From Acidobacteriaceae bacterium (GTDB lineage: Bacteria; Acidobacteriota; Terriglobia; Terriglobales; Acidobacteriaceae), in contig JASHQE010000033.1 of NCBI GenBank assembly GCA_030037705.1, positions 1 to 33,156 of the forward strand: a DNA stretch of 33,156 bases, in the 5' to 3' direction. The notes beneath the pieces were generated by a model, which worked only from the letters and a program-made list of their open reading frames with translations, ran no database searches and was not told where the DNA came from. A program made the translations under genes and the position numbers. Below are positions 1,056 to 24,837 of the stretch, piece after piece (position 1 is the stretch's first letter; each line of letters begins with the position of its first letter).

Positions 1056-1202
1056 CATGGCCGGGTAGTGGGTTAGTTTGAAGGATACAGGCTTCAGCTT
1101 GAAGGGTACGGGCTTTAGCCCGTACATCAAACCACACAAATTGAGTGGGGCTTTAACCCCTGAGGCACAGGCAATTCCAAACTGACCCACTGCCCATGGC
1201 CG
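1056..1202. mobile_element. MITE-like element, type A copy 1, with 8-bp target duplication
   Basis: The element spans 1064-1194 (131 bp). It starts GGTAGTGGGTTAGTTTG and ends CAAACTGACCCACTGCC, which are inverted repeats with two mismatches. It is flanked by a perfect 8-bp direct repeat CATGGCCG at 1056-1063 and 1195-1202, as left by transposition. Inside are two hairpins: GTACGGGC-TTTA-GCCCGTAC (1107-1126 region) and GGGG-CTTTAA-CCCC (1147-1160), the latter followed by TGAGG. No coding capacity, so it must have been moved by a transposase encoded elsewhere. Confidence 0.8.
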
Positions 1203-1653
1203 TGATCTTAGAAAGCCGCCGTCGGTCCTGATCGGCGGTTGAACGGACTGCTGAACGCGGCAAACCTTATAAGGGTTTTGACCGTCTGTTGTATGCACGC
1301 GGCGGCGCAGGAGGATCGGCACAGAATCGGCCCTGTCGGGCGGGAAAAGCGCCCGGCCCTCAGGACCGGAAGAGAACATGGTATATTCTCCACACTTCGG
1401 ATTGATGCCTGGTCTCGGGGGGCCTTGACCTGAAGCCGGGTTGTCTCTAAAACTATAGCGGAACCGGAGTCTACGCACGCTGGAGACAAAGCCGTTTCTA
1501 TGAGATTTCCGTTTCGCTTGAGTTTCCATCGGAACTGATTTTTTCCGTCGGGGCAAGCAGGAATTGTAGGAAAAAATTTGCAAAAACGCACGTTTGATCG
1601 TGTTGGATATCGTAACCCTGGAGTCGAATTGCACGTGGAGAGAGGAGGCTGCC
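1203..1653. other. Intergenic region without a recognised gene
   Basis: About 450 bp between the type A element and the LysW-like gene. I see no tRNA, no credible coding sequence and no known riboswitch. A short palindrome, AACCTTATAAGGGTT, lies near 1264-1278. The segment should hold the promoter for the rightward 1654-2222 pair and possibly one for the leftward rhomboid gene, but no box pair with good spacing could be picked by eye. Confidence 0.4.
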
Positions 1654-1848
1654 ATGCCCAGCTGCCCTGAATGCGAGAATAATTTGGATATCGAAGTCGA
1701 CGAAGTAGAAGAAGGCGACGTGATCGCCTGCGAAGAATGCGGGACTGAGTTCGAAGTGGTCGGTGTTGAACCGCTCGAGCTGGCGCGCATCGAGGATGAG
1801 CTCGAAGAAGAGGACGATCTCTACGAAGAAGAGGAGGAGGAAGAGTGA
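1654..1848 (+). CDS. LysW-like acidic zinc-ribbon protein with poly-Glu tail
   Basis: 64 residues from the ATG at 1654, chosen because a perfect AGGAGG lies at 1643-1648; longer in-frame starts lack one. The N-terminus MPSCPECENNLDIEV and the second pair CEECG make a CPEC...CEEC zinc ribbon, followed by EFEVVGVEPLELARIEDE, the pattern of LysW, the amino-group carrier protein of the alpha-aminoadipate lysine (and LysW-type arginine) pathway in Thermus and archaea. In LysW the substrate is attached to the C-terminal Glu of an EDWGE end. Here that end is replaced by an acidic stretch finishing in seven Glu. No lysX or other lys/arg biosynthesis gene is nearby. Carrier function is thus inference; a general acidic zinc-ribbon adaptor is possible. 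The stop overlaps the start of the next gene (GTGA). Confidence 0.75.
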   Translation: MPSCPECENNLDIEVDEVEEGDVIACEECGTEFEVVGVEPLELARIEDELEEEDDLYEEEEEEE

Positions 1849-2222
1849 GGCGCCGCCGGGTAACTCTGTTGGCGGCCGCATTTGCGGCGGTAGCTGCAGC
1901 AATCATTTCTTTCGGCGCGAAGGATGCGCCGCTTGCGCCTCAAGCCCAGGCGCAGAACATCGGCGAGCGTACGGTCTCAGGCACCGTGCTCGACGCCGGC
2001 TCCAATCCCACACCCGGAGCGACGGTCTTTCTCAAAAATGAGAAAACCAAGTCCATCCGCAGTTATACGTCCACCGCAGACGGCCACTTTCATTTCGCGC
2101 AAGTGAACATGGCCGAGGATTTCGACCTGTGGGCGGAAAAAAGCGGCAAGAAGAGCGCAGTAAAGACCGTCAGTTCCTGGGACGCACGCAAAGACTTTAT
2201 CTCTGACTTGAAGCTGAAGTAG
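1845..2222 (+). CDS. Secreted carboxypeptidase-regulatory-like (CarboxypepD_reg) domain protein
   Basis: 125 residues from a GTG at 1845 that overlaps the stop of the LysW-like gene by four bases (GTGA), suggesting translational coupling. Residues 1-37 form a signal peptide: RRRR, then an Ala-rich hydrophobic core, then a QAQAQ cleavage region. The mature part has VSGTVLDAGSNPTPGATVFLKN followed by STADGHFHFAQV, the transthyretin-like beta-sandwich of the carboxypeptidase regulatory-like family common in acidobacterial secreted proteins. No catalytic domain is attached. The likely place is periplasm or outer surface; the role is unknown. It converges with gatB, whose stop is 7 bp away. Confidence 0.75.
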   Translation: MRRRRVTLLAAAFAAVAAAIISFGAKDAPLAPQAQAQNIGERTVSGTVLDAGSNPTPGATVFLKNEKTKSIRSYTSTADGHFHFAQVNMAEDFDLWAEKSGKKSAVKTVSSWDARKDFISDLKLK

Positions 2223-2229
2223 AAAGCAG

Positions 2230-3708
2230 TCACCCTTCCAGCTTTTTCACCACCAGCTCATTGAGCAGTACGGGATTGGCCTGCCCTTTCGACGCGCGCA
2301 TCACTTGGCCTAGGAAGAATCCAGCCATGGTCTTCTTGCCTGCGCGATACTGCTCTACCTGTTTCGGATGAGCGGCAATTGCTTCATCGATCAGCTTTTC
2401 AAGGGCGGACGCATCCGTGATCTGCTGCGGCTTTTCCCGCTCATAGACAATGCCGAAGTCTTCGCCTTTTTCGAAGGCAATATCCATGAGCTGCTTCATC
2501 TGTCTGGAACTGATCTTGTCTTCGTCGAGAAGATCCGCTGCCAGCACGATGCCGGTCATCGAAACAGGCGACTGTTCGGGCTCAAGCCCCAGCGCCTTCA
2601 GCCGGCCTCCCACTTCGCTTAGGAGAACGTTCGCCACGCGGCGCGGACTCTTCGCGGTTTTAGCGGCGGACTCAAAGCGGTCGGCGAATTCGCGCGATGC
2701 CGTAAGCGTCTGTGCATCCTGTGCCGTCAGCTCATACTCGGCGATCATACGGGCGCGGCGGGCCTCGGGTAACTCCGGAAGCCTCTTCTCCGTTTCCTCT
2801 AAAACCTTCGCAGAAACGATGAGCGGCGGTAGATCTGGTTCGGGAAAGTAGCGGTAATCATGCGCCTGCTCCTTCGAGCGCATCGAGTAAGTGCGGCCCT
2901 CGTTGGAGTTCCACAGACGTGTCTCCTGCACTACAGAGCCGCCTGACTCGATCACCTCGATCTGCCGCTCGATCTCATATTCAAGCGCCGCGCGAATGAA
3001 GCGGAAACTGTTGACATTTTTCACCTCGACCTTTGTGCCGAATTTTTCCTGCCCCTTTGGCCGTACGCTCACATTCGCATCGCAACGAAGCGACCCTTCT
3101 TCCATATTGCAATCGGATACACCGGTATAAAGCAGGATTTCCTTGAGCCGCGTGAGATACTCGAAGGCTTCCTCTGGAGTGCGAATATCCGGTTCGCTGA
3201 CAATCTCAACGAGCGGCGTGCCACAGCGGTTCAGGTCGAGGTAGGTGCGCGTAGCCGAATCGGCGAACCCCTCATGCAGGCTCTTGCCCGCGTCCTCCTC
3301 CATGTGCAACCGCGTGATGCCGATCCGCTTCGTGTGACCGTCGGCTGTCGGCACTTCAATCCAGCCATGCTCGGCGAGCGGCTTATCATACTGCGAAATC
3401 TGATAACCCTTCGGCAGGTCAGGATAGAAGTAGTTTTTGCGCGCGAAGATGGAACGCTCTCTCACTTTGCAATGCAGGGCCAGCGCAGCCAGCGTTGCGA
3501 ACTCGACGGCCTTGGCGTTCAACACCGGCAGTGCGCCCGGCAGACCAAGGCACACCGGGCAAATGTTCGTATTGGGCGCCGAGCCGAACTTGTTGGCGCA
3601 ACCGCAAAAGGCCTTGGTAACAGTAAGCAGTTGCACGTGCACTTCGAGCCCGATGACAGGCTCATATTTCGCCAGAACGTCAGGAGAAAGCGATATTGCA
3701 GCAGACAT
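2230..3708 (-). CDS. gatB: Asp-tRNA(Asn)/Glu-tRNA(Gln) amidotransferase subunit B
   Basis: 492 residues, normal length for GatB. The N-terminus YEPVIGLEVHVQL and the cysteine set CGCANKF...NICPVCLGLPGALPVLN (structural zinc site) are diagnostic, followed by the FYPDLPKGYQISQYDKPL and SDCNMEEGSLRCDANVSVRP blocks. The C-terminus has the GatB/YqeY tRNA-binding domain (AHPKQVEQYRAGKKTMAGFFLGQVMRASKGQANP). With GatA and GatC it converts Glu-tRNA(Gln) and/or Asp-tRNA(Asn) to the amidated forms, GatB being the kinase and tRNA-binding subunit. gatA and gatC are not in the window. It starts 9 nt after the infC stop, so it is very likely in the infC transcript. Confidence 0.97.
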   Translation of the reverse strand: MSAAISLSPDVLAKYEPVIGLEVHVQLLTVTKAFCGCANKFGSAPNTNICPVCLGLPGALPVLNAKAVEFATLAALALHCKVRERSIFARKNYFYPDLPKGYQISQYDKPLAEHGWIEVPTADGHTKRIGITRLHMEEDAGKSLHEGFADSATRTYLDLNRCGTPLVEIVSEPDIRTPEEAFEYLTRLKEILLYTGVSDCNMEEGSLRCDANVSVRPKGQEKFGTKVEVKNVNSFRFIRAALEYEIERQIEVIESGGSVVQETRLWNSNEGRTYSMRSKEQAHDYRYFPEPDLPPLIVSAKVLEETEKRLPELPEARRARMIAEYELTAQDAQTLTASREFADRFESAAKTAKSPRRVANVLLSEVGGRLKALGLEPEQSPVSMTGIVLAADLLDEDKISSRQMKQLMDIAFEKGEDFGIVYEREKPQQITDASALEKLIDEAIAAHPKQVEQYRAGKKTMAGFFLGQVMRASKGQANPVLLNELVVKKLEG

Positions 3709-3717
3709 ACGTCGATT

Positions 3718-4317
3718 CTATGCGGGCGGACGCTGTGCTGGGGGCTGCGGTGAGGGCGGGACGGGCGGCTTGGGTTTAGCGGCGTCTTTCTTGACTGGTG
3801 CAAGAATCGCGTGCAGAATGGTGCCTTCCATGCGCGGCATAAACTCCACCACGCCGGCATCGCCCACATCCTGAATCAAACGATTGATAATGTTATAACC
3901 TAGCTCGCGGTGCGCCATCTGGCGGCCGCGGAAGCGCAGGCTGGCCTTCACCTTGTCGCCTTCGTTCAGGAAACGCACAGCCTGATTTTTTTTAGTCTGA
4001 TAATCGTGTTCGTCCACTGTCACAGAAAACTTAACTTCCTTGACGACGATCACCTTTTGCCGCTTGCGGGCAGCGCGCTCGCTTTTTTCTTTTTCGTAGA
4101 GGTAGCGGCCGTAGTCCTGGATGCGGCAAACAGGCGGGACGGCGTTCGGCGAAACCTCAACCAGGTCCAGCCCGCGCTCGCGGGCAACCTTTAACGCCTC
4201 ATAAGGAGGCATGATGCCCAACTGTTCGCCGTTTTCGTCAATCACGCGAATCTCGCGTGCGCGAATTCGATCATTAATACGAATAAAAGACTTGGCCGAT
4301 CGTTTATCGAGTGCGAT
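3718..4317 (-). CDS. infC: Translation initiation factor IF-3, apparent AUC start codon
   Basis: 199 residues when begun at the ATC at 4315-4317. This codon is preceded by GGAGG (4324-4328) with a 6-nt spacer, and yields M-ALDKRSAKSFIRINDRIRA, close to the usual IF-3 N-terminus. The only ATG or GTG further upstream would add about 22 residues without family resemblance. IF3-N (INDRIRAREIRVID...VCRIQDYGRYLYEKEK) and IF3-C (VKEVKFSVTVDEHDYQTK...LRFRGRQMAHRELG...EGTILHAILAP) are complete. A Pro/Lys-rich tail of about 25 residues follows. IF-3 binds 30S and rejects non-AUG starts, so a rare start codon permits autoregulation, as for the AUU of E. coli infC. Unlike most bacteria, infC is followed by gatB and not by rpmI-rplT. 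Confidence 0.93.
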   Translation of the reverse strand: MALDKRSAKSFIRINDRIRAREIRVIDENGEQLGIMPPYEALKVARERGLDLVEVSPNAVPPVCRIQDYGRYLYEKEKSERAARKRQKVIVVKEVKFSVTVDEHDYQTKKNQAVRFLNEGDKVKASLRFRGRQMAHRELGYNIINRLIQDVGDAGVVEFMPRMEGTILHAILAPVKKDAAKPKPPVPPSPQPPAQRPPA

Positions 4318-4328
4318 GGCGCTCCTCC
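4318..4328 (-). promoter_or_regulatory. Ribosome binding site defining the AUC start of infC
   Basis: On the reverse strand GGAGGAGCGCC runs directly into ATC GCA CTC. The GGAGG core is 6 nt from the ATC, the optimal distance, while no ATG, GTG or TTG lies at a usable distance in the IF-3 frame. Confidence 0.75.
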
Positions 4329-4430
4329 AGACGCCGTGTTCGCACGATCTTCCCGGAAGTGTCAGGAAACAGCGCGAGCCCACGAACGCACACTGAGTAT
4401 AGCATTGGCTCGGCTTCCATGAACAAAGGG

Positions 4431-5813
4431 TTAAACAGCCAAATTACCCTGGAGCACTTCCTCTACACCCAGTCCCGTAATGAACGCGCGAATCAGTCGA
4501 TTCGCCGGTAAGCTTCCTTCGATCTCGACGGGAAGAAAATTCTCCGTCAGTACAGAAGTTCGGCTGCGGGACGCAAGCGTCACAGGCGTGTGGAGAGTGA
4601 TGACATCGAGCACACGGCCCACAAAGCGGCCACGATGTGTTGCTGTTTTTTCGGCGGCTTGAGTGCGCAGCGCGGACATGCGCTCTTCGACGAGAGCGGG
4701 CGCAACGGGCGACTGCTCGTGCAAAGACCATCCACGCGTTCCCGGCCGCGGCGAAAACGGGAACAAGTGCAGGTAGCCGAACGGCAGTGCGCGCAGGAAT
4801 GAAAGAGTCTCTTCAAATTCGGCATCGGTTTCGCCGGGAAAACCCGCCATTACATCGGCGCCGATGGTGAGATCCGGCCCTGCCGCACGAAGCAGGGCTT
4901 CGACTTTTTCCGCATAATGCCAAGGCCTGTAACGGCGGTGCATGCGGCGCAGCACCGCGTCCGAGCCCGACTGCAGCGGCAGATGTGCATGGCGCGCCAG
5001 ACGGCCGCCGCCAAATTCCGCGATCAGGCCGATCAATTCATCATCCCAGTCCATAGGCTCGATGGAACTGAGGCGCAGACGCGGCAGTGCCGTCCGGTCG
5101 AGAATCTGCCGGACCAGCGCCGCGAGCGTAACGCGCGGCGTTAAATCTCTCCCCCAGCGGCCGAGATTAATTCCAGAGAGCACCAGCTCCTGGCCGCCGG
5201 CAGCAACAAATCCTTCAATGTGGCGCAAGATGTTCGCGTTGGGCAGGCTTTTGGACGGGCCGCGCGTCTGGGGAATGACGCAAAATGTGCACCGGTTTCC
5301 GCAGCCTTCCTGGATCTTCAGATTCGGACGCGTCTGCGTCCCGGGCACCAGCCGCGCCTCTTCAATAAAAGAATGCGCGAAGCGGTCATCGGCCCAAACG
5401 GGTGCTCTGCCTGCGAGCAGAGACTGCACGCTCACCAGCGTATCCCTTGCAAGCAGTGACGAGCTGGTCTCGCGGGAAGCCAGCTTCAGAATGATCTCGG
5501 GCGCCAGCGCCTTATGGCTGTTGCCAATCACCGCAGCCACGCCATCCATCTCTGCCAGCTCTTCCGGCGCGCGCTGCGCGTAACAGCCGGTGACGACGAT
5601 CTTCGCCGTGGGATTTCGGCGATGCGCGCGGCGAATGAATGCCCGCGCCTGCCGGTCCGCTTCGGCTGTGACGCTGCAGCTGTTCACAACAACAACATCG
5701 GCATCGGAAAGCTGCGCGCTCTGCTGCCCTGCCGCGCACAGGCGCGCGCTGATCGCTTCGCCATCGGCGCGCGCCGCTCTGCAGCCAAAATGCTCGATAT
5801 AACAGCCGGACAT
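4431..5813 (-). CDS. mtaB: tRNA threonylcarbamoyladenosine methylthiotransferase (MtaB/MiaB family)
   Basis: 460 residues from the ATG at 5813, chosen because MSGCYIEHFGCRAARADGEA matches the usual family start; an in-frame ATG 102 nt upstream would add unrelated sequence. The UPF0004 domain carries three iron-sulfur cysteines (about C11, C46, C77: FGCRAARADG, NSCSVT, TGCYAQ). The radical SAM domain has CGNRCTFC (about 171-178) with RGPSKS just after. The C-terminal part fits a TRAM RNA-binding domain. The enzyme adds methylthio to t6A37 of tRNAs reading ANN codons, using SAM and two 4Fe-4S clusters. MtaB, not MiaB or RimO, is suggested by the short N-terminus and overall pattern. It heads the leftward group mtaB-infC-gatB. 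Confidence 0.88.
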   Translation of the reverse strand: MSGCYIEHFGCRAARADGEAISARLCAAGQQSAQLSDADVVVVNSCSVTAEADRQARAFIRRAHRRNPTAKIVVTGCYAQRAPEELAEMDGVAAVIGNSHKALAPEIILKLASRETSSSLLARDTLVSVQSLLAGRAPVWADDRFAHSFIEEARLVPGTQTRPNLKIQEGCGNRCTFCVIPQTRGPSKSLPNANILRHIEGFVAAGGQELVLSGINLGRWGRDLTPRVTLAALVRQILDRTALPRLRLSSIEPMDWDDELIGLIAEFGGGRLARHAHLPLQSGSDAVLRRMHRRYRPWHYAEKVEALLRAAGPDLTIGADVMAGFPGETDAEFEETLSFLRALPFGYLHLFPFSPRPGTRGWSLHEQSPVAPALVEERMSALRTQAAEKTATHRGRFVGRVLDVITLHTPVTLASRSRTSVLTENFLPVEIEGSLPANRLIRAFITGLGVEEVLQGNLAV

Positions 5814-5903
5814 CCCTTCTAGTTTACGGTGAAACCGGAGGCATCTTGAATACGCGCCGCGGTTCGGCCGCAAAAACAAGGAACAGCGGGAGCAGGCGTC
5901 CGC

Positions 5904-6344
5904 ATGTATCATCACGCCATGCGCTCAGACGAGGAGCCGGATCTCACGACGCCGCCCAGGCTCATGTCCGTGTTACACGAGTTGATCGACCGCGAACCGA
6001 TCTTCCATCGCCCGGAGTTGGGCACCACGCGTGCTGATTTCGAGCGGATGACACGGGAGGATTTTTGGGAGACCGGCGCTTCGGGACGCCGTTACAGTCG
6101 CGCCTTTGTGTTGGATGTACTCGAAAGGCGCTTTTCGCGTCCGCATGAGGATCGGTGGGAAGCGAGCGATTTCTGCTGCCGTGAGCTCGCAACGGACCTG
6201 TATCTGCTTACCTACACGCTCGTTCAGGATTCCATACGCAAGACGCGCCGCGCGACGATCTGGCAGCGCACGGCGGCAGGGTGGAAGATCGTCTATCACC
6301 AGGGCACGACCGTCGAAGAACGGCCGCAGCCGCTGTCTCCATAA
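5904..6344 (+). CDS. DUF4440/SnoaL-like (NTF2-fold) protein
   Basis: 146 residues from the ATG at 5904; a second ATG at 5919 (MRSDEEP) is equally possible and neither has a strong ribosome site. The pattern of an N-terminal helix with ELIDREPIFHRPE, a middle AFVLDVLERRF, then strands YLLTYTLVQ, RRATIWQRTAAGWKIVYHQGT, matches small cone-shaped NTF2-like DUF4440 proteins. The end (W-R-T-x-x-GW-K-I-V-Y-H-Q-G-T) is the most conserved part of that family. The biochemical role is unknown. It is divergent from mtaB, with about 90 bp between starts, and just upstream of the MFS gene. Confidence 0.75.
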   Translation: MYHHAMRSDEEPDLTTPPRLMSVLHELIDREPIFHRPELGTTRADFERMTREDFWETGASGRRYSRAFVLDVLERRFSRPHEDRWEASDFCCRELATDLYLLTYTLVQDSIRKTRRATIWQRTAAGWKIVYHQGTTVEERPQPLSP

Positions 6345-6388
6345 CTCAATTTCGCATCCGATATACTTTGAAGAGGGGAATTGCGCCC

Positions 6389-6409
6389 ATGAGCCGGTTC
6401 CCATGTTAG
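6389..6409 (+). other. Possible six-codon upstream leader ORF before the MFS gene
   Basis: GAGGGG (6373-6378) is followed 10 nt later by ATG AGC CGG TTC CCA TGT TAG, a six-codon frame (MSRFPC). Its stop overlaps or abuts the possible starts of the transporter (ATG at 6403 or 6412). The transporter's own starts lack a ribosome site, so initiation by coupling to this mini-ORF is plausible. It could also be chance. Confidence 0.3.
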
Positions 6410-7617
6410 GCATGCCTTACTCCGCTTCTGCCAGTATCCCCGTAACCGCGCGCACCGCAGCGAGAAGCGGGACACGGCACATTCTAGGCTTCGTCTACTT
6501 CACATTTATCTGCTATTTGTCGATCGGATTGCCGCTGGCGGTGTTGCCGCCTTACGTGCACCTGCGCATGGGCTATAGCGCCGTGCTCGCCGGACTGGTC
6601 ATCAGCATCCAGTACATTGCCACGCTCGCAAGCCGCCCATGGGCCGGGCGCATCTCAGACCGCCAAGGCGCGAAGATCTCCGTGATCTGGGGCATGGCGG
6701 CGTGCACCGCCAGTGGAGCGCTGCTGGTGGCAGCCGCGGCTCTTTACTCCATTCACTGGTTGAGCTTCTGGAGCCTGATTCTGAGCCGGCTCATTCTGGG
6801 CGTTGGAGAAAGCCTCGGCTCAACCGGGGCCACGCTATGGGGCATCACGGCCGCAGGACCGGAAGCCACAGCCAAGGTGATCTCCTATAACGGCATCTGC
6901 ACCTACGGCGCAATGGCCCTTGCCGCGCCGCTGGGCGTAGTGCTCGATGACCTATGGGGCCTGAGCTCACTCGGAGTCTTCACCATCCTCATCGGCGCGC
7001 TCAGCCTGATGATGGCCACACGCAAACAGCCTGTCCCGGTGATACCAGGCGAACACCTCCCCTTCAGTCATGTGCTGGGCCGTGTGGCGCCGCACGGCAT
7101 GGGACTGGCGCTGAGCGGCGTTTGCTATAGCGTGCTGGCCACCTTCATCACGCTCTTTTATGCCGCCCGCCATTGGAGTGGAGCGGTCCTGTGCCTTACG
7201 GCTTTCGGCATTGCATTTATCCTCGCCCGCCTGCTCTTTGTTCAAACCATCAACCGTTTTGGCGGATTTCCAGTGGCAATGACGTGCCTTGTCGTCGAAT
7301 CTGTCGGCTTGTTTTTGCTCTGGCGCTCGAACTCGCCGGCCCTCGCGCTCACTGGCGCATCTCTGGGCGGCTTTGGCTTTTCGCTTGTCTTTCCAGCCAT
7401 CGGCGTCGAAGCCGTCGAGCGCGTGCCCGAAAACAATCGCGGCACCGCGCTCGGCGTCTACACTGCATTTGCCGATGTCTCGTTTTTCCTCGTCGGCCCC
7501 ATCGCCGGAGCAATCATCGGCTGGTTCGGCTACCGCAGCGTCTTTCTTTTCGCGCTGATCAGCGTGCTCACTGCGCTGGGGATTGTCATCGTGCTCTGCC
7601 GCGTTCAGAAGGAGTAG
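6403..7617 (+). CDS. Major facilitator superfamily transporter (YhhS/YfcJ-like)
   Basis: About 404 residues from the ATG at 6403 (MLGMPYSAS); an alternative ATG at 6412 is three residues later. Twelve hydrophobic segments can be traced. The A-motif between segments 2 and 3 reads GRISDRQGAK (G-x-x-x-D-R-x-G-x-K/R), and SRLILGVGESLGSTGATLWGI in segment 4 fits the sugar/drug exporter-type MFS set that includes E. coli YhhS and YfcJ. It should be an inner-membrane, proton-coupled exporter; the substrate cannot be told from sequence. It ends just before a bidirectional terminator shared with rpsA. A leader mini-ORF (6389-6409) may drive its translation. Confidence 0.85.
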   Translation: MLGMPYSASASIPVTARTAARSGTRHILGFVYFTFICYLSIGLPLAVLPPYVHLRMGYSAVLAGLVISIQYIATLASRPWAGRISDRQGAKISVIWGMAACTASGALLVAAAALYSIHWLSFWSLILSRLILGVGESLGSTGATLWGITAAGPEATAKVISYNGICTYGAMALAAPLGVVLDDLWGLSSLGVFTILIGALSLMMATRKQPVPVIPGEHLPFSHVLGRVAPHGMGLALSGVCYSVLATFITLFYAARHWSGAVLCLTAFGIAFILARLLFVQTINRFGGFPVAMTCLVVESVGLFLLWRSNSPALALTGASLGGFGFSLVFPAIGVEAVERVPENNRGTALGVYTAFADVSFFLVGPIAGAIIGWFGYRSVFLFALISVLTALGIVIVLCRVQKE

Positions 7618-7640
7618 CGCATTCCATCTCGTAGACGCAA

Positions 7641-7669
7641 AACGGCCATCCCTGCGCAGGATGGCCGTT
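7641..7669. terminator. Bidirectional hairpin terminator between the MFS gene and rpsA
   Basis: AACGGCCATCC pairs perfectly with GGATGGCCGTT across a 7-nt CTGCGCA loop. Both genes end here, convergently. On the reverse strand the stem runs into a short T stretch (CCGTTTTGCG). A near-identical stem-loop ends the STAS and lemA genes at 26831-26859. Confidence 0.75.
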
Positions 7670-7702
7670 CTGTTCACTGTCCCCTGATCTCTGTTCTCTG
7701 TC

Positions 7703-9661: not shown

Positions 9662-9936
9662 GCCTACCAGCTCCGGGATTCCTTGCTCCTGCGGCGGTCC
9701 GGGCCGGCCGCTGGCCGGCTCCCTCGCTACGTTTACCGCAGCCCAGGCGCCTTCGAGCCGTGATCCTGCCGTCGGGTTTTCGAACGTACCGGTGAAATTC
9801 TCCGGAGCAGCAACCTTGCCAGCACTGATTTGCGCTGGGAATAAGGCGACTGTTCTCCTTGGGAAGCACCCGGCAGGCAACGGCTTGCTGGAGGGCGGCC
9901 GCAACTCACTGCTGGAAATCCGCGCAGGAAGCTACG
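9662..9936 (-). promoter_or_regulatory. Long 5' leader of rpsA
   Basis: The segment between the predicted promoter and the ATG is about 275 nt. It holds a strong hairpin with GCCGGCC and GGCCGGC arms (9703-9719) about 40 nt upstream of the start. S1 represses its own translation through structured leaders in E. coli, so a similar control is plausible. The leader stays open in the rpsA frame back to 9904, but that reading gives low-complexity, unfamily-like residues. Confidence 0.45.
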
Positions 9937-9942
9937 CTCACG

Positions 9943-9972
9943 AGTGTAGCAATCTCTGCAAGCCAGCGTCAA
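9943..9972 (-). promoter_or_regulatory. Sigma70-type promoter of rpsA
   Basis: On the reverse strand TTGACG (9967-9972) is separated by 18 nt from TACACT (9943-9948), a good match to housekeeping -35/-10 boxes. Transcription would start near 9936. The type A mobile element begins only about 15 bp upstream of the -35 box. Confidence 0.65.
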
Positions 9973-9979
9973 ACCAAAC

Positions 9980-10119
9980 GCTCATCCGGTAGTAGGTCAG
10001 TTTGAAGGATACGGGTTGAAGGGTACGGGCTTTAGCCCGTACGTTAATCTCCTACCATCATTCAGGGGCTTCAGCCCCTGAGGAAAGCTTCTTTCAAACT
10101 GACCCACTACCGCTCATCC
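9980..10119. mobile_element. MITE-like element, type A copy 2, with 8-bp target duplication
   Basis: The element spans 9988-10111 (124 bp), from GGTAGTAGGTCAGTTTG to CAAACTGACCCACTACC. A perfect direct repeat GCTCATCC flanks it at 9980-9987 and 10112-10119. Inside are GTACGGGC-TTTA-GCCCGTAC (about 10023-10042) and GGGGCTTCAGCCCCTGAGG (10065-10083). It lies between rpsA and the HIT gene, directly upstream of the rpsA -35 box. No coding capacity. Confidence 0.82.
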
Positions 10120-10226: not shown

Positions 10227-10823
10227 ATGGAACATTTCTGGACTCCCTGGCGCTATCACTACGTCACCACGGCGGGGAAGGCGGTGCGCCCCGGAATTCC
10301 AGAAACGCTCTCCGCCTGGCCCGGAGATACTGGCTGCGTCTTCTGCAATCTCATCGCGTCGATTGACCATGCGATTGCGCAAGGGATGGATCGGGATCAG
10401 GCAGAAGCCGCGGGCGGTCTGGTTCTGCGCGCCCAACATTGCTTCATCTGCCTGAATGCCTTTCCATACACCTCAGGCCACGTCATGGTCATGCCCTATG
10501 CGCATCTCGACCGGCTGGCCATCTTGCCTCGGGACGCAGCGCACGAACTTGTCGATCTGGCGCAGCTTACCGAGCGTACGCTCGACCGCGTCTACATGCC
10601 GCATGGCTTTAACTTCGGCCTCAACATCGGCCACGCCGCCGGAGCGGGCGTAGCCGGCCACGTCCATCTGCACGCCATGCCACGCTGGATCGGTGATACC
10701 AGCTTCATGACCACGGTTGCCGAGACCCGCGTGCTTCCTGAAGACCTGGAGACGACCTGGAAGCGGTTGCGCGCGGCGTTTGCGGAGCTGGAAAGTAAAC
10801 CAGCCGGCCAGTCAGCGCGTTAG
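10227..10823 (+). CDS. HIT-family nucleotide hydrolase/transferase
   Basis: 198 residues from the ATG at 10227; no clear ribosome site precedes it, and TATACT at 10186-10191 is a candidate -10 box, so the leader is short. The protein has the HIT signature GHVHLHAMPRW (His145, His147, His149; H-x-H-x-H), where the middle His forms a nucleotidyl intermediate. It also has a CVFC pair at 37-40, as in the zinc-binding HIT/Ap4A phosphorylase-like group (HFWTPWRYHYV start, LRAQHCFICLNAFPYTSGHVMVMPY). It probably cleaves dinucleoside polyphosphates or AMP-lysine-type adducts; the substrate is not fixed by sequence. The final G of its TAG stop is the first base of the type B element that follows. Confidence 0.88.
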   Translation: MEHFWTPWRYHYVTTAGKAVRPGIPETLSAWPGDTGCVFCNLIASIDHAIAQGMDRDQAEAAGGLVLRAQHCFICLNAFPYTSGHVMVMPYAHLDRLAILPRDAAHELVDLAQLTERTLDRVYMPHGFNFGLNIGHAAGAGVAGHVHLHAMPRWIGDTSFMTTVAETRVLPEDLETTWKRLRAAFAELESKPAGQSAR

Positions 10824-10974
10824 GTAGTGTCTGATGAATCACGAGCGAGAGGGTTTTGTAACAGGGCATGGCTTTAGCCATGCCGAAAAGGCGCAAAACT
10901 TCGAAGGGGTTTTAACCCCTGAGGGATGTTCTTTGCGCTGCAAACAGGTGTTTTCCGATTCGTCAGACACTGCC
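10823..10974. mobile_element. MITE-like element, type B
   Basis: 152 bp with ends GGTAGTGTCTGATGAATC and GATTCGTCAGACACTGCC (two mismatches as inverted repeats). These ends differ from type A after GGTAGTG, yet the core is the same: GGCATGGC-TTTA-GCCATGCC, spacer, AGGGGTTTTAACCCCTGAGGGA, then TTCTTT. Flanks AGCGCGTTA and AGCGCCGTT resemble each other but are not an exact duplication. It abuts the stop codon of the HIT gene. Confidence 0.72.
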
Positions 10975-11093
10975 TAGCGCCGTTGGAGTGTGCACTCGAT
11001 CCGGTGCATCTGTGTAAATCTGGACATGTGCAAGGTGCTGGCCGGCGGTATATGATGCGGGCGCTGTCTCTAAAGAGAGCGAGGGACTCACCC

Positions 11094-15748: not shown

Positions 15749-15797
15749 GGGCAGTATTGTCTCCGAGCGCGCGGAAAACCATGAAGACGGTTTACGT

Positions 15798-15803: not shown

Positions 15804-15814
15804 TTACGAATCGT

Positions 15815-17278: not shown

Positions 17279-17294
17279 CATGGAGACAGTCGGC

Positions 17295-18002: not shown

Positions 18003-18074
18003 CCATTTCGATTTCGATGTGCGCCGATGCAAGGCGATCCGGAAAAAACACGCCTGGCGAAAGATGCCTGTTTG

Positions 18075-18508
18075 TTACTTATGCGCCCAGACCTTCCAAG
18101 CCAAATTCCCCTCACTGTTGGTGACCGTCTCCCAATGTTCGACGAATACGGCATCGCCTGTGACGGGTTCGATAGCCTGGCGTAACGCTTTTTTCACCTC
18201 TGCATCGGACGCGCCCGGAGCCACGGCCACATCCGTTGCCTGTACGGTGACGATGATGCCATGCCCGCCGTTGCCGCTCACCAGGATTGGATGCAAGGGT
18301 CCGGGTAGAGTCGAAGGCCGGTCGCCGAAGTTCCACAGGTGCGGGGTGACGAAGATGAAGAGGAGGATCAGTGAGACCATTACGTCGTACTGGACGCTGC
18401 CGCGTGGATGGGTCCAGTAAAAGTAACTCTTCAGAATCGGCCTGAGACCCTGACCTTCCATGTGTCGTTCCGGTTGAGGCGCCGAGACGGCTGCGCTCTG
18501 CATTTCCA

Positions 18509-18509
<1 letters not shown>
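18075..18509 (-). CDS. Small membrane-anchored protein coupled to serS
   Basis: 144 residues from the ATG at 18509, chosen because AAGGAG lies 5 nt upstream and the ATG shares one base with the serS stop (TAATG), the hallmark of coupled translation. An N-terminal cytoplasmic part has SYFYWTHPRGSVQYDVMVSL, then one helix (LILLFIFVTPHLW, about 46-60), then a periplasmic domain of about 80 residues with GIIVTVQATDVAV, SDAEVKKALRQAIEPVTGDAVFVEHWETVTNSEGNLAWKVWA. The topology resembles single-span TolR/ExbD-like or sensor-anchor proteins, but I cannot assign it to a named family. Translational coupling to an aminoacyl-tRNA synthetase is noteworthy. Confidence 0.7.
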
Positions 18510-19852
<1,343 letters not shown>

Positions 19853-19917
19853 TTACTTGACGAGAAGTGACGGATTTTCCAGATAGAGCGCAGCAAACGT
19901 GTCGCCGAACCCAGCAT

Positions 19918-21372
19918 TTAGCTCCGCTGCAGGCTGCCGCTCGCTGCGGCTCGCGTGGGCGCAGCGCCATTCGCGGTTCCCGCGGATTCAGCCAACTCAG
20001 ATTCTGAGCCGGTTGCCTTCTTCGTTGCAATCTGTTCTTGCCATCCCGGCAGCCGCTGGTCGCCGGTAATGAGCCGGGCGCCGCGCGTGAAGGTGAAGTA
20101 AGTCCAGATCCAGGCGGCAAACACCGAAACACGATTGCGGAATCCGATAAGAAAGAAAATGTGCACGGTAAGCCAGGTAACCCACGCGAAAAGGCCACTC
20201 ATGTGGGCTTTGAATGGCCACTTCACGTCGGCTACCGCATCCATGCGGCCGATGGTGGCCATGTCGCCCTTGTCAAAATACCGGAAGGCGGGCCGGATCT
20301 TGCCTGCAAGATCGGCGGCAATCATCTTCGCCACATGATCGCCCATCTGCATCGCCGGCTGCGCTACGCCCGGAACTTGACGCCCATCCTGCTCGAAATG
20401 GGCCAGATCGCCCAAGACGAAGACCTCCGGCAGTCCCGGCGGATTGAGCCGGTCGTCGACCATCACACAGCCGCGATGGTCCACCGGCGCGCCCAGCATC
20501 CTGCCCAGGGACGAGGCCTGAACGCCCGCAGCCCATAAAGTGACCGCCGCATCGATCCTTTGGCCATTTGCTTCCACCCACCCCGGACCCACACCGGTCA
20601 CCTGCGCTTTGGTATGGACCTCAACGTTCAGCCGCTTAAGCGCAGCCTCGGCTTTGGCGGAGAGATCCTCTGGGTACGCGGCCAGAATCCGATGACCTCC
20701 ATCGAGTAAAAGAACGCGGGCCTTGGTGGGATCGATATGCCGGAAGTCGTGGCGCATGTAGAGTTGCGCAATGTCGCTGATAGCCCCGGCCAGCTCCACG
20801 CCGGTCGGTCCGCCGCCAATGACCACGAAGTTCAGCGGCGGATGCCACCCATGCTCCACCATCTGCCGTTCGGCCAATTCGAAGGCTAAGAGCACGCGGC
20901 GGCGAATCTCCGTGGCGTCTTCTACTGTTTTGAGCCCCGGCGCCAGTGGCGCCCAATCTTCGTGGCCGAAATAAGAGTGGCTGGCGCCGGTGGCAAGAGC
21001 CAGGTAATCGTATGTCACCCGCGCGCCGCTGGCCAGCGTGATCTGCCGCATGCCCACGTCGATGCCGACGACCTCATCCATGAGCACTTCCGCATTCGAC
21101 TGGTGCCGCAGGATGGAGCGGATGGGCTCGGCGATATCCGCCGGCGAAAGCACGGCGAGCGCGACCTGATAGAGAAGCGGCTGAAAGAGATGGTGGTTGC
21201 GCCGGTCGATCACCGTTACGTTCACGTCCAGACGAGCCAGCGCCCGCGCCGCGTGAATCCCGGCAAACCCTCCGCCCACAATGACTACGCGCGGCCGGGA
21301 GGGCTGCGCCTCTGCAAGTCCCATTCCAACTCCCACTTTTGGTGCCGTTGCCAACTCACCCACTGTCTGCAC
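19918..21372 (-). CDS. ndh: Type II NADH:quinone oxidoreductase
   Basis: Up to 484 residues. The start is uncertain: GTG at 21372, GTG at 21363 (best ribosome site, GAGGTG) or ATG at 21324 (after GGGAG). Two Rossmann dinucleotide motifs are clear: VVIVGGGFAGIHAARAL for FAD and FVVIGGGPTGVELAGAI for NADH. LFQPLLYQVAL and the C-terminal FVLGDLAHF...PGVAQPAMQMGDH are typical of Ndh-2. A hydrophobic C-terminal region (MSGLFAWVTWLTVHIFFLIGFRNR) is the membrane-anchoring part seen in this family. It passes electrons from NADH to quinone without pumping protons. The last 40 residues are an Ala/Ser-rich tail. Divergent from terC. Confidence 0.92.
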   Translation of the reverse strand: MQTVGELATAPKVGVGMGLAEAQPSRPRVVIVGGGFAGIHAARALARLDVNVTVIDRRNHHLFQPLLYQVALAVLSPADIAEPIRSILRHQSNAEVLMDEVVGIDVGMRQITLASGARVTYDYLALATGASHSYFGHEDWAPLAPGLKTVEDATEIRRRVLLAFELAERQMVEHGWHPPLNFVVIGGGPTGVELAGAISDIAQLYMRHDFRHIDPTKARVLLLDGGHRILAAYPEDLSAKAEAALKRLNVEVHTKAQVTGVGPGWVEANGQRIDAAVTLWAAGVQASSLGRMLGAPVDHRGCVMVDDRLNPPGLPEVFVLGDLAHFEQDGRQVPGVAQPAMQMGDHVAKMIAADLAGKIRPAFRYFDKGDMATIGRMDAVADVKWPFKAHMSGLFAWVTWLTVHIFFLIGFRNRVSVFAAWIWTYFTFTRGARLITGDQRLPGWQEQIATKKATGSESELAESAGTANGAAPTRAAASGSLQRS

Positions 21373-21490
21373 CTCGCAATCTCTCTAGCAGATGCGGAAA
21401 AGAGGAAATAGGTCACAGCGCCTTTGCAAAAGCAATGCCTTATCACCCGCAAACGCACGTGAGGACGCGACGGTGCTGTAGCATCCACGT

Positions 21491-22360
21491 ATGATCGCAG
21501 GCGCATCCTGGATCTGGTGGGCAGGGTTCCATGCGGGTGTGGCGGCGTTGCTGCTCGTTGACTCCCTTCTTCCCGGGCACACGCGCGAAACCCGCCATCA
21601 GCAAGTGTTCGCCTGGATCGGCACGGCCTTCTTTGCCCTGGCCGCGGCGGTATTTGCCGCCTGGATCGCTTTTACCCAGGGCCGGCAGCCTGCGCTCGAA
21701 TTTGTGGCCGGCTACACCATCGAGACATCGCTCAGTATCGATAACCTCTTCGTTTTTCTGGTCCTTTTTGAAGGCTTTCAGATCGGCCGCCAGCGCCAGC
21801 ATAAGGCGTTGCTGTGGGGCGTGTGGGGCGCCATCGCGCTGCGGGCGGCGTTTATTGCCACTGGCGTCACGCTGCTGGAGCACTTTAGCTGGATTGCGTG
21901 GGTCTTTGGTCTTTTCCTGTTGTACGTGGCCTGGCGGTTGATCCGGGGTGGTTCGGCGCGTGCGGCGATTCCCGCCTGGATCCGCCGTTTGCAGCCGGCT
22001 AAAGGCTCGCTGCTGCCGGTGATTCTGGCGGTCGAAGTCACCGATCTCGTCTTCGCCACCGATTCCATCCCGGCGGTCCTGGCCGTAACTCACAATCCTT
22101 TCGTCGCTTACACCTCGAATATCGCGGCCATTCTCGGGTTGCGGTCGCTTTACTTCGCTCTCGCCGGCCTGCTTGACCGGTTCCGTTATCTCCACTACGG
22201 ATTGGGCGCACTGCTTGGCTTTGTTGCGTTCAAAATGCTCGTCGCTCGCTGGATCGAGATTCCGATTGTTCCATCGCTGGCTGTGATCGGGGGCATCCTC
22301 GCTGTTTCGGCGGTTGCCTCACAGATGGCGAAGGGAAAGGGACTAGGGACTAGGGACTAG
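21491..22360 (+). CDS. TerC/Alx-family integral membrane protein
   Basis: 289 residues with about eight to nine hydrophobic helices. Core motifs are ETSLSIDNLFVFLVLFEGF (acidic residues in the third helix) and VEVTDLVFATDSIPAVLAVTHNPFVAYTSNIAAILGLRSLYF, the diagnostic TerC/Alx signature. Members export Mn(II) or other metals (Alx, MeeF/MeeY) or belong to tellurium-resistance sets; no ter genes or Mn riboswitch are seen upstream, so Mn export is family inference. The final residues GLGTRD and the stop are encoded by a tandem GGGACTA array (22339-22366), so the C-terminus depends on array length. Divergent from ndh with 118 bp between starts. Confidence 0.88.
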   Translation: MIAGASWIWWAGFHAGVAALLLVDSLLPGHTRETRHQQVFAWIGTAFFALAAAVFAAWIAFTQGRQPALEFVAGYTIETSLSIDNLFVFLVLFEGFQIGRQRQHKALLWGVWGAIALRAAFIATGVTLLEHFSWIAWVFGLFLLYVAWRLIRGGSARAAIPAWIRRLQPAKGSLLPVILAVEVTDLVFATDSIPAVLAVTHNPFVAYTSNIAAILGLRSLYFALAGLLDRFRYLHYGLGALLGFVAFKMLVARWIEIPIVPSLAVIGGILAVSAVASQMAKGKGLGTRD

Positions 22361-22366
22361 GGACTA
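22339..22366. repeat. GGGACTA heptanucleotide tandem array at the 3' end of terC
   Basis: Four perfect GGGACTA units run from 22339 to 22366 and encode the last TerC residues plus its TAG stop. A fifth copy lies at 22499-22505, on the other side of the type C element. Gain or loss of a 7-bp unit would shift the reading frame of the TerC C-terminus. Confidence 0.7.
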
Positions 22367-22368
22367 GA

Positions 22369-22498
22369 ACTGGTTGCATAAATGGTTTCGTAACAGGGCA
22401 CGACTTGAGTCGTGCCGCAAAAGCCTCGTGAACACTGGGGCTTTAGCCCCTGAGGGAAGTTTCTTTACCTGACCAGACCATTGATGCAACCAGCTCTG
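22369..22498. mobile_element. MITE-like element, type C
   Basis: Ends ACTGGTTGCATAAATGGT and ACCATTGATGCAACCAG form inverted repeats unlike those of types A and B. The core is the same as theirs: CAGGGCACGACTTGAGTCGTGCCG (stem GGCACGAC-TTGA-GTCGTGCC), a spacer, then GGGGCTTTAGCCCCTGAGGGA and TTCTTT. GGGACTAGA occurs on both sides (22360-22368 and 22499-22507), which fits a 9-bp target duplication but could also come from the heptamer array. Exact ends are therefore uncertain. Confidence 0.68.
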
Positions 22499-22513
22499 GG
22501 GACTAGAGACGCT

Positions 22514-24121
22514 TTACCAGGTTTCGAACCGGATATGCCCTTGGCGGTCCAGCACCGAATGCTTCTGGAACTCCTGATCGTTTCGCTGGGGGTAATCATT
22601 GCGAAAGTGCGCGCCGCGGCTCTCCGTGCGCGCCAAGGCCGAGCGCAGAATGGCGTGGGCCACACGGCAGAGCGACTGGGCCTCGGCGAGACGGCGGTCG
22701 AACCTTCCGCGCTGCGTGAGACGCGCAAGGGAGAAATCGCACTTGGCTTGTGTGCGCAGTCCTTCGCACAAGGCTGCGTCGTCACGGAGAAGGCCGGCGC
22801 AGGTCCACATGGCGCGCTGAAGCCGCGCAATAACTTCTTCGACGCAGCGCTCTTCATCAGGAGGCAATGGGGATTCGGCGGCCTCATTGCATTCAACGCG
22901 CGTGAGCGGCGGGCCGTCGGCAAGCATCGCCTGGGCGGCGCGCGCGCCGAAGACCAGTCCTTCGAGCAGCGAGTTCGAGGCCAGCCGGTTGGCGCCGTGA
23001 ACACCGGTGCAAGCCGCTTCACCGGCTGCGTAAAGGCCGGCGATGTTGGTGCGCCCCTCCAGATCGGTACGGATGCCGCCCATGAGGTAATGCGCCGCCG
23101 GACGGACGGGAATCAGATCGCGCGCAAGGTCGAGACCATGACGGGCCAGGAAAGCGCTGATGCCCGGAAAGCGCTTGTGCAGATCGTGTCCGGTAACGTG
23201 GCGCATGTCGAGGAAGACCGGACGGGCGCTGCCCGCCGCATCCATGCCTTCGCGCGCGATGGCCCGCGCCACCACATCGCGCGGGGCCAGTTCGAGCAGC
23301 GGATGGTAGCGTTCCATGAATCGTTCGCCGCGGTCGTTGCGCAGATACGCGCCCTCGCCTCGCAGGGCTTCGGAGAGGAGAAACCGCGGCGCACCGGGGA
23401 GCGAGAGCGCCGTGGGATGGAATTGGTAGAACTCCATGTCGGCGAGCTCGGCCCCGGCCTGCGCGGCAAGGGCGATGCCGTCCCCTGTTGCTACGGCGGG
23501 ATTGGTCGTGTCCGAGTACACCTGGCCTGCGCCGCCTGAGGCGATGAGTACGGCCCGCGCGCAGATCCTTTGCGGACGGCAGTTTTCTTCAGCCGGACAG
23601 GCCTCTGCCAGATCGGCGCCAATGACCCGGTTATCCGCGGTTACCAGGCTCGTCACGCGGGTCCACGCGGCAAAACGGATGGCTTTGTGGACACGCGCGA
23701 AGGCCACGAGGGAACGGCTGATCTCAGCCCCGGTTGCATCGCCGTTGGCATGCAGGATGCGGGCCAGGGAATGTGCTCCCTCACGGGTGCGCAGCAGTTC
23801 GCCGTGGGTCTGGTCAAACTTTGCGCCCCATTCGATCAGCTCATGGACGCGCAGCGGACCCTCCGCAGCCAGCGTCTCGGCGGCCGGCCGGTAAACAATG
23901 CCATCTCCGGCATTTACGGTATCTTCGAGATGCAGCGCGACATCCTGCTCGCCTTCCATCGCAACAGCGATGCCACCTTGCGCATAGTGCGTATTCGATT
24001 CGCCCAGAGCTTCCTTCGTGACCACGAGCACTTCGCCGTGGCGGGCGAGCTCGACAGCCGCCCGCAGCCCCGCTACGCCGGCGCCCACTACCAAAAAATC
24101 GACCTCTGCCCCCGCCCCCAT
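22514..24121 (-). CDS. nadB: L-aspartate oxidase
   Basis: 535 residues, normal length. The FAD-binding start VDFLVVGAGVAGLRAAVELA is followed by the family blocks SNTHYAQGGIAVAM, HANGDATGAEISRSL, ASGGAGQVYSDTTNPAVATGDGIALAAQAGAELADMEFYQFHPTAL, and HYLMGGIRTDLEGRTNIAGLYAAGEAACTGVHGANRLASNSLLEGLVFGARAA. These include the substrate-binding His and Arg residues of the succinate dehydrogenase/NadB family; the EFYQFHPT and GVHGANRLASNSLLE motifs separate NadB from SdhA/FrdA. It oxidises L-aspartate to iminoaspartate, the first step of de novo NAD synthesis; NadA and NadC are not in the window. Start at ATG 24121 (MGAGAEVDF). Confidence 0.95.
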   Translation of the reverse strand: MGAGAEVDFLVVGAGVAGLRAAVELARHGEVLVVTKEALGESNTHYAQGGIAVAMEGEQDVALHLEDTVNAGDGIVYRPAAETLAAEGPLRVHELIEWGAKFDQTHGELLRTREGAHSLARILHANGDATGAEISRSLVAFARVHKAIRFAAWTRVTSLVTADNRVIGADLAEACPAEENCRPQRICARAVLIASGGAGQVYSDTTNPAVATGDGIALAAQAGAELADMEFYQFHPTALSLPGAPRFLLSEALRGEGAYLRNDRGERFMERYHPLLELAPRDVVARAIAREGMDAAGSARPVFLDMRHVTGHDLHKRFPGISAFLARHGLDLARDLIPVRPAAHYLMGGIRTDLEGRTNIAGLYAAGEAACTGVHGANRLASNSLLEGLVFGARAAQAMLADGPPLTRVECNEAAESPLPPDEERCVEEVIARLQRAMWTCAGLLRDDAALCEGLRTQAKCDFSLARLTQRGRFDRRLAEAQSLCRVAHAILRSALARTESRGAHFRNDYPQRNDQEFQKHSVLDRQGHIRFETW

Positions 24122-24276
24122 TCCTGTTAGAGGCTATCATCGCGGCCTGGGATGCGGAGTTGAGAGCACGGTCTCAGTTTGGGCCTTGCTCTAAGATGGA
24201 CGTCTTTTCCGGTTGCCGGGTGCCCCAGGTCTCCGGATGTCGAGCTCAGCACGATGATGGTTGCAGCCCGATCATT

Positions 24277-24338
24277 CAAGCGCTGTCATGTTGAGCGGAG
24301 TCCGCCACGGCGGACTACGCTCAGGATGACAGTGCTTG
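24277..24338. repeat. 62-bp near-perfect palindrome (TGTCAT...GAGCG-type repeat)
   Basis: Two 30-bp arms (24277-24306 and 24309-24338) pair at 26 of 30 positions. The motif TGTCAT(CC/GT)TGAGCG...AGTCCGCC is a dispersed repeat type seen widely in bacterial genomes. A partner left half recurs at 24428-24457. It probably has no coding role; its mode of spread is unclear. Confidence 0.7.
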
Positions 24339-24374
24339 GGTTGGGATTTATGCTTTCCCAGGTTTCAAAATCGA
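24303..24374. repeat. 72-bp direct repeat, copy 1
   Basis: This 72-bp stretch recurs at 24615-24686 with a single mismatch (A versus G at the TTTATGC/TTTGTGC site). It includes the right arm of the palindrome at 24277-24338. Two copies 312 bp apart could recombine and delete the segment between them. Confidence 0.8.
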
Positions 24375-24614
24375 GACCCTTCGACAAGCTCAGGGCAGGC
24401 TCTGGGGCACCCGGCAGCCCAATCACCCAAGCACTGTCATGTTGAGCGGAGTCCGCCGCGGCGGACGGAGTCGAAACATCTGCGGTTCGTCTCGCAGCTC
24501 CACGCACAATGCACTCATCAAAGATGTCAAAGCAGCATCGTTTCCAGCCTTAAGCTTCGCGAAGAACAACCGCAGATCCCCTTCGACTACGCTCAGGGCA
24601 GGCTTTCGACTCGT
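24375..24614. repeat. Mosaic of dispersed repeat fragments
   Basis: Pieces here include CTTCGACAAGCTCAGGGCAG (24378-24397), a second TGTCATGTTGAGCGGAGTCC half-palindrome (24434 on), a GCGGACGGAGTCGAAACATC stretch shared with 11984-12012, and CTTCGACTACGCTCAGGGCA (24582-24601). These are common dispersed-repeat modules. No coding sequence is convincing. Confidence 0.55.
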
Positions 24615-24686
24615 CGCCACGGCGGACTACGCTCAGGATGACAGTGCTTGGGTTGGGATTTGTGCTTTCCCAGGTTTCAAAATCGA
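24615..24686. repeat. 72-bp direct repeat, copy 2
   Basis: Near-identical to 24303-24374 (71 of 72 bases). It is followed by CCTGGGGCACCC, which matches in inverted orientation the GGTGCCCCAGG at about 24218-24230. Confidence 0.8.
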
Positions 24687-24727
24687 AACCTGGGGCACCC
24701 AGGTCGTGCTCAGTCAGCCCGGAAAAT

Positions 24728-24837
24728 GGTAGTGGGTCAGTTTGAAGGGGCACGGCTTTAGCCGTGCCGTAAACAGATCAAAATGTGTGCGGGCTTTAGC
24801 CCCTGAGGGATGGTTTTACGCAAACTGACCCACTACC
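24728..24837. mobile_element. MITE-like element, type A copy 3
   Basis: 110 bp with perfect 17-bp inverted ends: GGTAGTGGGTCAGTTTG and CAAACTGACCCACTACC. The core has GGCACGGC-TTTA-GCCGTGCC and GGGCTTTAGCCCCTGAGGGA. Flanking 8-mers CGGAAAAT and TGAAAAAT agree at six positions, so any target duplication has decayed. It lies upstream of the two-gene unknown pair. Confidence 0.78.

Follow-up and report, generated by a model that had tools for sequence, protein, structure and literature searches.

Short repeat elements of an Acidobacteriaceae genome probably join insertion-sequence ends to a RAYT-type REP doublet

How can short mobile elements have the same inside and different ends? The question is raised by contig JASHQE010000033.1 of an Acidobacteriaceae bacterium (GenBank assembly GCA_030037705.1), analysed here as a window of 33,156 nt, the whole stretch of DNA under study. 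An earlier note had described five intergenic elements in it, with one inner core and three kinds of terminal inverted repeat (types A, B and C), and had read them as modules in which a cargo was captured, or could be moved, by several transposases. The five elements exist where that note placed them, with one boundary corrected (22369-22498 to 22368-22495). They are probably chimeric miniature transposons, in which the ends of DDE insertion sequences (of assigned family for types A, C, D and E, and with a TA target for type B) surround a doublet of repetitive extragenic palindromic (REP) units of the type associated with REP-associated tyrosine transposases (RAYTs), and which are moved and exchanged as proposed below. 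The chimeric build is seen in the identity of ends and core, in target duplications and in mosaics. C-numbers denote contigs of this genome (G000) and L-numbers loci from related genomes.

Copies in the genome and in relatives

Searching the genome (a draft of 5.13 Mb in 332 contigs, 85% complete) separately with the core and with each end gave 126 matches to the core pattern GGGGYTTYARCCCCTGAGG at ≤1 mismatch, 157 to the type A end (≤1 mismatch), 32 to the type B end (≤3 mismatches) and 86 to the type C end (≤3 mismatches), while the reversed-pattern controls yielded 0, 0, 1 and 0 matches, respectively. Pairs of ends and their cores were evaluated among the matches listed (100 of the 126 core places and 100 of the 157 type A places), in stretches taken around these places (392 kb, part of them reached through the core; contig C147 and two weak type B places excepted). 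Among the matches listed, ends pair within ≤450 bp in 81 cases for type A, 11 for type B, 41 for type C (including two, on contigs C131 and C314, that are broader readings of pairs in the same count) and one for a fourth type, D. The core (≤4 mismatches) lies inside 75 of the 81 A pairs, all 11 B pairs, 40 of the 41 C pairs and the D pair. For A pairs chosen by at least one exact end, it was present in 46 of 52, and in 51 of 52 at ≤5 mismatches. Dinucleotide shuffles of these elements never produced it (A 0/243, B 0/30, C 0/162; the type C totals here and in the classifier test below, e.g. 162 and 54, hold double counts from an inner end-like match).

Short elements of related genomes, whose loci came through ends or core, hold the core in 15/21 (A), 15/24 (B), 20/22 (C), 6/8 (D) and 11/16 (E) cases, and shuffles of these elements were again empty (0/63, 0/72, 0/66, 0/24 and 0/48). 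Of the two outcomes under which, according to the earlier note, the modular idea would fail (one continuous ancestor with diverged ends, or a core confined to a single end type elsewhere), neither was borne out; the core is present in elements of types A to E of relatives.

Each end type follows its own target rule. Among the matches listed, a perfect 8-bp target duplication flanks 39 of 81 type A elements, CTAG stands on both sides of 27 of 37 type C elements, and TA on both sides of 9 of 11 type B elements. Since the 128-bp type C copies (30) and the 110-bp copies of subtype A1 (15) show a mean likeness of 94-95% and include identical pairs, some of the amplification looks recent.

The core as a RAYT-associated REP doublet

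Each core consists of a long-stem hairpin 1, followed about 37-40 nt on (centre to centre) by the hairpin GGGGCTTTAGCCCC (hairpin 2). Instead of a single sequence, the cores represent a number of related REP classes, and the genus has at least five end types; in these two points the earlier description of one core with three ends is inexact.

Seven matches to Y1 transposases were found in the genome, one of which is a RAYT gene (G000:C1:9509-10018; NCBIfam NF047646, 98.8 bits, cut-off 80). This gene is bracketed by inverted hairpins of the alpha class, with the foot TGTAACAG and the stem GGCACGAC..GTCGTGC, and is the only one of the seven with hairpins close on both sides. The match on contig C234 was rejected as a bracketed locus; its nearest core, about 900 bp off, belongs to a type A element. 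Relatives of the RAYT occur in 38 of the 59 genus-set genomes, and 28 of the 30 loci found in a named collection stand under Acidobacteria-type names, the other two being weak matches from Glaciecola and Flavobacteriales. In a strict test for perfect-stem hairpins, which could score 29 of 30 genus RAYT loci, hairpins were present on both sides of the gene in 18, on one side in four and on neither side in seven; six of these seven have imperfect-stem versions on both sides in their printed flanks, and the seventh, L290, has a hairpin upstream and the core downstream. In terms of density, 43 hairpins fall in the 14,090 nt next to RAYT genes and 0 in the 44,707 nt farther off. Hairpin 1 also shows compensatory changes: eight positions pair in 83-93% of 122 distinct sequence windows, seven of them above all 300 shuffles, the outermost tying with the shuffle maximum. 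Because of the RAYT bracketing and the compensatory changes, the core is read, on sequence grounds, as a RAYT-associated REP doublet and not as anonymous cargo.

The foot of hairpin 1 differs between RAYT groups, for which class names were coined in this analysis: GTAACA in alpha, TTGAAA in beta, GTGTCAG in delta, GGTAGG in epsilon and GGAGGGAG in zeta. The gamma class has TTGAAGGGTAC; among the loci read, no RAYT locus with this foot was identified. The beta RAYT locus L295 carries exactly the GGGGCTTTAGCCCCTGAGGGAT of the elements studied here. The two hairpins of the doublet have a common TTNA loop and different stems, whereas a REPIN would be one REP twice, in inverted orientation. In type A elements, TTGAAGGGTACGGGCTTTAGC, which comprises half of hairpin 1 and the foot, often occurs in tandem before hairpin 1 (contigs C5, C165, C181, C309 and others).

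The ends as insertion-sequence ends

The outer parts appear, from their sequences, to be terminal inverted repeats of DDE insertion sequences, type A being IS1-like, types C and E IS5-like and type D IS5/IS1182-like. The fourth type, D, has the end CTAGCAGGCTGCGGAAAAA; the fifth, E (AGCGTGTTTCAAAAATGG), was first met in relatives. Four of these types have likely full-length parents in sister species (A, C, E and, as a candidate, D).

For type A, full-length elements with the same ends, of the kind that the earlier note had suggested looking for, are L247, L248 and L249 (3083, 3609 and 2123 bp). All three have perfect 8-bp duplications (gtagtttt, atctttgc and gggcatcg), and their transposases score 30-35 bits with PF03400 (IS1), above the Pfam cut-off of 24.1. 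These parents are large for IS1 and contain extra open frames beside the transposase (L247 1244-2345, L248); those of L247 resemble, on visual inspection, a small pair of the toxin-antitoxin type. The type C parent L198 (892 bp) encodes an IS5-type transposase in two frames (NF033580, 122.8 and 102.8 bits, cut-off 110). L381, the type E parent, likewise comprises 892 bp, lies between CTAG copies and has a transposase of the same IS5 group as that of L198, also in two frames. For type D, the candidate parents L395/L352 (1592 bp) encode an IS5_4/IS1182-like transposase in two frames, and the left end of L395 is exact to a D variant. With these parents found, the same kind of inside is seen to be bounded by IS1-like and by IS5-like ends with different target rules.

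No full-length parent was recognised in the 392 kb of stretches from the studied genome; the whole of it was not searched for IS1/IS5 transposases. Long end pairs in these stretches, considered as parents, were mostly two separate short elements, and the type D pair of L347 (1454 bp), which contains a serine-hydrolase-like frame by eye, is probably not an insertion sequence. Outside the genus, the core locus L160 (genome G077, of a different family in this class) is flanked by a 10-bp inverted repeat, TCCGCTAGTG, which may represent one more end type.

Interchange of ends and cores

Within a given end type several REP classes are found, and a given class recurs in several end types. Statements on the class of single loci rest on reading the sequences themselves, as was done for the relatives, because a strict doublet classifier missed many copies (A 14/81, B 2/10 and C 3/54 in the studied genome; A 8/21, B 9/24, C 8/22, D 3/8 and E 8/16 in relatives). 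In relatives, type A ends enclose alpha (L231), beta (L245), gamma (L227, L239, L253, L264) and delta (L244) doublets, and type B ends alpha (L334, L339), beta-like (L340), epsilon-like (L311) and zeta-like (L309) ones. Type C ends are combined with alpha-like (L256-L258, L260), beta (L188, L210, L262) and delta (L164, L191) doublets, type D ends with alpha (L355), beta-like (L357), delta (the inner element of L327), epsilon (L348) and zeta (L316, L349), and type E ends with alpha (L167) and beta (L240).

Mosaics point the same way. In gapped comparisons, the core of subtype A5, which has type A ends, is identical to type B cores at 57-58 of 60-61 positions (93-95%) and to A1 cores at 47-48 of 58-59 (80-83%), while the A5 right arm resembles A1 and is unalignable with, or only weakly like, the right arm of B (24 of 31 in one pair). 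The A5 copies at C13, C126, C152 and C330 have 8-bp duplications; the copy at C127 has none. Elements with two different ends exist as well (B/C at C248, A/C at C140, B/E at C295); no shared duplication was seen around these three, which we infer to be recombination scars.

In essence the modular idea stands, because both here and throughout the genus several end types surround the core, and likely parents are available for four of five of them; the part that falls is the notion of a neutral cargo, the core being a putative RAYT-type REP doublet. As for capture by transposases, the cores of relatives mostly lie without such ends, and the direction and mechanism of joining are what we infer. 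The whole piece would be mobilised by DDE transposases working in trans on its ends, and the REP unit would thereby spread without its own transposase. Element families would swap their REP units, with recombination or template switching at the near-identical hairpins as the likeliest route, and bare REP units would be moved by RAYT. A bolder version, which we regard as tentative, is that the REP doublet serves as an exchangeable core spread by two unrelated chemistries, that of the single-strand HUH RAYT and that of several DDE transposases, that the elements are end-plus-core modules, and that a RAYT repeat may escape its single-copy transposase by lodging in an active miniature inverted-repeat transposable element (MITE).

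Several findings weigh against the chimera as described. On the side of the core, alpha RAYT loci mostly have CTGCC, not CTGAGG, after hairpin 2, and only the epsilon class (GGTAGG) has a classical GTAG foot; because most classes do not, we have not filed the core as a GTAG REP or as a REPIN. There is no clear correspondence between the class of an element's REP and the best resident RAYT, the outcome being near chance: in a test that used only the best RAYT locus per genome and partly missed mismatched hairpins, the mean percentile was 0.39 (48 elements) or 0.43 (16 genomes), with 0.5 as null, and the resident RAYT ranked first in 5 of 48 elements. On the side of the ends, the type A parents score 60-63 bits with NF033558 (IS1), below its cut-off of 100; the right flank of the type C parent L198 is cut by a contig end; the two transposase frames of L381 reach 96.8 and 109.9 bits, below the cut-off of 110, and its right end has four mismatches; the right end of L395 has three, and the L352 frames score 89.4 and 87.5 bits at a cut-off of 140. 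For type B, the TA target was seen and no full-length parent was present among the loci examined. Moreover, the core is not obligatory, because some short type E elements (L374, L376, L387, L391) are free of REP, and in a handful of short elements of types A and B (C14, C215, L298) only a remnant of it is left. Finally, within an end type the length of the elements hardly varies from species to species (C mostly 127-131 bp, B mostly 148-153 bp), a pattern that speaks for old chimeras whose cores were replaced in situ more than for fresh capture time after time.

Alternative explanations

The alternative that fares best, if still doubtful, is that REP units were repeatedly inserted by RAYT into pre-existing, REP-free miniatures, recombination having a minor part in the mixing. 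It would account for the several REP classes per end type, for the existence of the REP-free type E elements named above, and for the two geometries of A and D elements, in which the REP lies at two different positions. However, REP-free E elements measure 86-108 bp and filled ones 128-131 bp, which is no clean difference of one REP unit; the position of the core is nearly fixed in B and C elements across classes, and the breakpoints of the A5 mosaics lie at hairpins.

That the core was retained because it is useful, for instance by terminating transcripts or making mRNA more stable where the element has inserted, so that selection would explain the mixing of ends, seems to us unlikely. The 46 of 52 type A pairs with a core, chosen by an exact end only, fit it, as does the T-rich sequence that often follows hairpin 2. 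Single-strand folding was far better than that of shuffles for four of four window elements (z of -4.6 to -7.0), the ends contributing partly to this figure. Nevertheless, the REP-free type E elements argue against a need for the core, and its constancy would follow equally from the amplification of few founders.

Descent of all copies from one chimeric ancestor, whose ends diverged around a single inherited core, is very improbable. Although the fixed length per end type agrees with it and the likeness of A5 and B cores could be old inheritance, the ends correspond to distinct transposase families and target rules, the cores of A5 and B agree to 93-95% next to right arms that align weakly or not at all, and the stems of hairpin 1 are unrelated within one end type. 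Errors of draft assembly or binning, to which a genome in 332 contigs and 85% complete, with several core and end copies near contig ends, might be prone, hardly explain the mixed ends and mosaics, since A5 copies stand between perfect 8-bp duplications of their own and other genomes show the same mixing.

Bare cores and REP loops as landing sites

The exact core pattern was present in 59 of 99 genomes, comprising 52 of the 59 genus-set genomes (the studied one included) and 7 of the 40 outside. In relatives the core is mostly bare: in a sample of one core locus per genome (30 loci, six of them outside the genus, with 31 cores), two cores have matching A-E ends on both sides, one has two different ends, five have one end and 23 have none. 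In the studied genome, among the matches listed, 94 of 113 cores (≤1 mismatch) lie between matching ends and four are without ends, the sample being partly enriched by the stretches taken for ends.

REP loops also serve the elements as landing sites. Type B elements sit in the loop of hairpin 2 (TTTA^TAG) on contigs C146, C151, C152, C5 and C321 and at L324, L325 and L335, and type D elements in the loop of hairpin 1 at L176, L316, L323 and L327. A further palindromic insert of about 45 bp, of the type GGGGTCCCC...GGGGT, occupies the hairpin-1 loop of several elements, both in the studied genome (C121:3099, C37:3198, C22:5576) and in relatives (L203, L259, L305, L324, L328). Directly next to many type C copies (C121:389, C134:5372, C28 and others) stands CTAGTGTCCTGTCTC or its complement, as if these copies had gone into the CTAG end of another repeat.

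Relation to known systems

The usual view makes REP repeats dependent on one single-copy RAYT and regards the interiors of MITEs as leftovers of the parent element. The elements described here fit neither picture, having REP units inside DDE-type elements at most of the sampled sites of the genome, and interiors that are common to several MITE families. Two gene-jumping machineries thus appear to meet in one small element of these soil bacteria, and both the assembly of new MITE families and a repeat's escape from its transposase become directly testable.

Both parts are of known kinds, namely REP/RAYT units and MITEs derived from insertion sequences; their systematic, interchangeable combination was not found described, and a search of the open-access literature yielded no published account in which REP doublets form the interior of more than one MITE family. 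REP/RAYT systems (REPtrons) and REPINs, as far as presented in the portions of text available (PMC2817692, PMC3116915, PMC3733652), share with our repeats the high-copy hairpins, their inverted arrangement around a single RAYT gene and their maintenance by base-pairing. They differ in that most classes here have no GTAG foot, the two hairpins of the doublet have different stems, and the 94 of 113 sampled copies mentioned above lie between DDE-type ends. MITEs derived from insertion sequences are likewise short and non-coding, with the ends of a full-length element and the expected target duplications; here, in contrast, the interior appears to be a REP doublet that belongs to a different transposition system and is swapped among MITE families. 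That insertion sequences such as IS1397 target REPs is a published theme (PMC1525189, accessible part), matched here by the B and D elements in REP hairpin loops; in that case the REP is the target, whereas our elements have it as their content, too. Tyrosine transposases with flanking repeats, some in high copy, have been described from Acidobacteria as TIRYT (PMC3733652) and class 3 TnpA (PMC6006769), and the RAYTs found here resemble them in this description; the available portions of these two papers describe no form with DDE ends.

The five elements of the window

The five elements are all on the + strand. The first type A element (1064..1194, 131 bp), identified by its end pair, core and duplication, encloses a gamma-class doublet. 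Its terminal repeats lie at 1064-1080 and 1178-1194, hairpin 1 (GTACGGGC TTTA GCCCGTAC; sequence and class pairing) at 1106..1125, and hairpin 2 with the CTGAGG tail, i.e. the core motif, at 1147..1165. In the second (9988..10111, 124 bp; also gamma), hairpin 1 is located at 10023..10042 and the core motif at 10065..10083. The perfect 8-bp duplications that had been reported for these two copies were confirmed, CATGGCCG at 1056..1063 (left) and 1195-1202 (right) and GCTCATCC at 9980-9987 and 10112-10119.

The type B element (10823..10974, 152 bp) starts directly 3' of the stop codon of a HIT-domain gene and contains an alpha-class doublet with the foot TTTTGTAACA. It has terminal repeats at 10823-10840 and 10957-10974, TA flanks at 10821-10822 and 10975-10976, hairpin 1 (GGCATGGC TTTA GCCATGCC) at 10865..10884 and the core motif at 10906..10924. 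The type C element, also with an alpha-class doublet, is best read as AACTGG...CCAGCT, 22368..22495 (128 bp), with hairpin 1 (GGCACGAC TTGA GTCGTGCC) at 22397..22416 and the core motif at 22437..22455. CTAG stands to its left (22364-22367) and CTGG to its right, the latter being a decayed CTAG duplication.

The third type A copy, of subtype A1 (24728..24837, 110 bp), encloses a beta-class doublet between terminal repeats at 24728-24744 and 24821-24837, with hairpin 1 (GGCACGGC TTTA GCCGTGCC) at 24749..24768 and the core motif, with one mismatch, at 24790..24808. It has no perfect duplication within the window; its insertion context recurs at C225:14065, there with a perfect 8-bp duplication.

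An Rfam search of the window gave no family reaching its gathering score. The 24728..24837 element recurs on contigs C100, C225 and C325, preceded there by the same left flank. Adjoining the same element, positions 24263-24690 hold a further repeat family, made up of TGTCATGTTGAGCGGAGTCCGCC blocks in direct and inverted copies.

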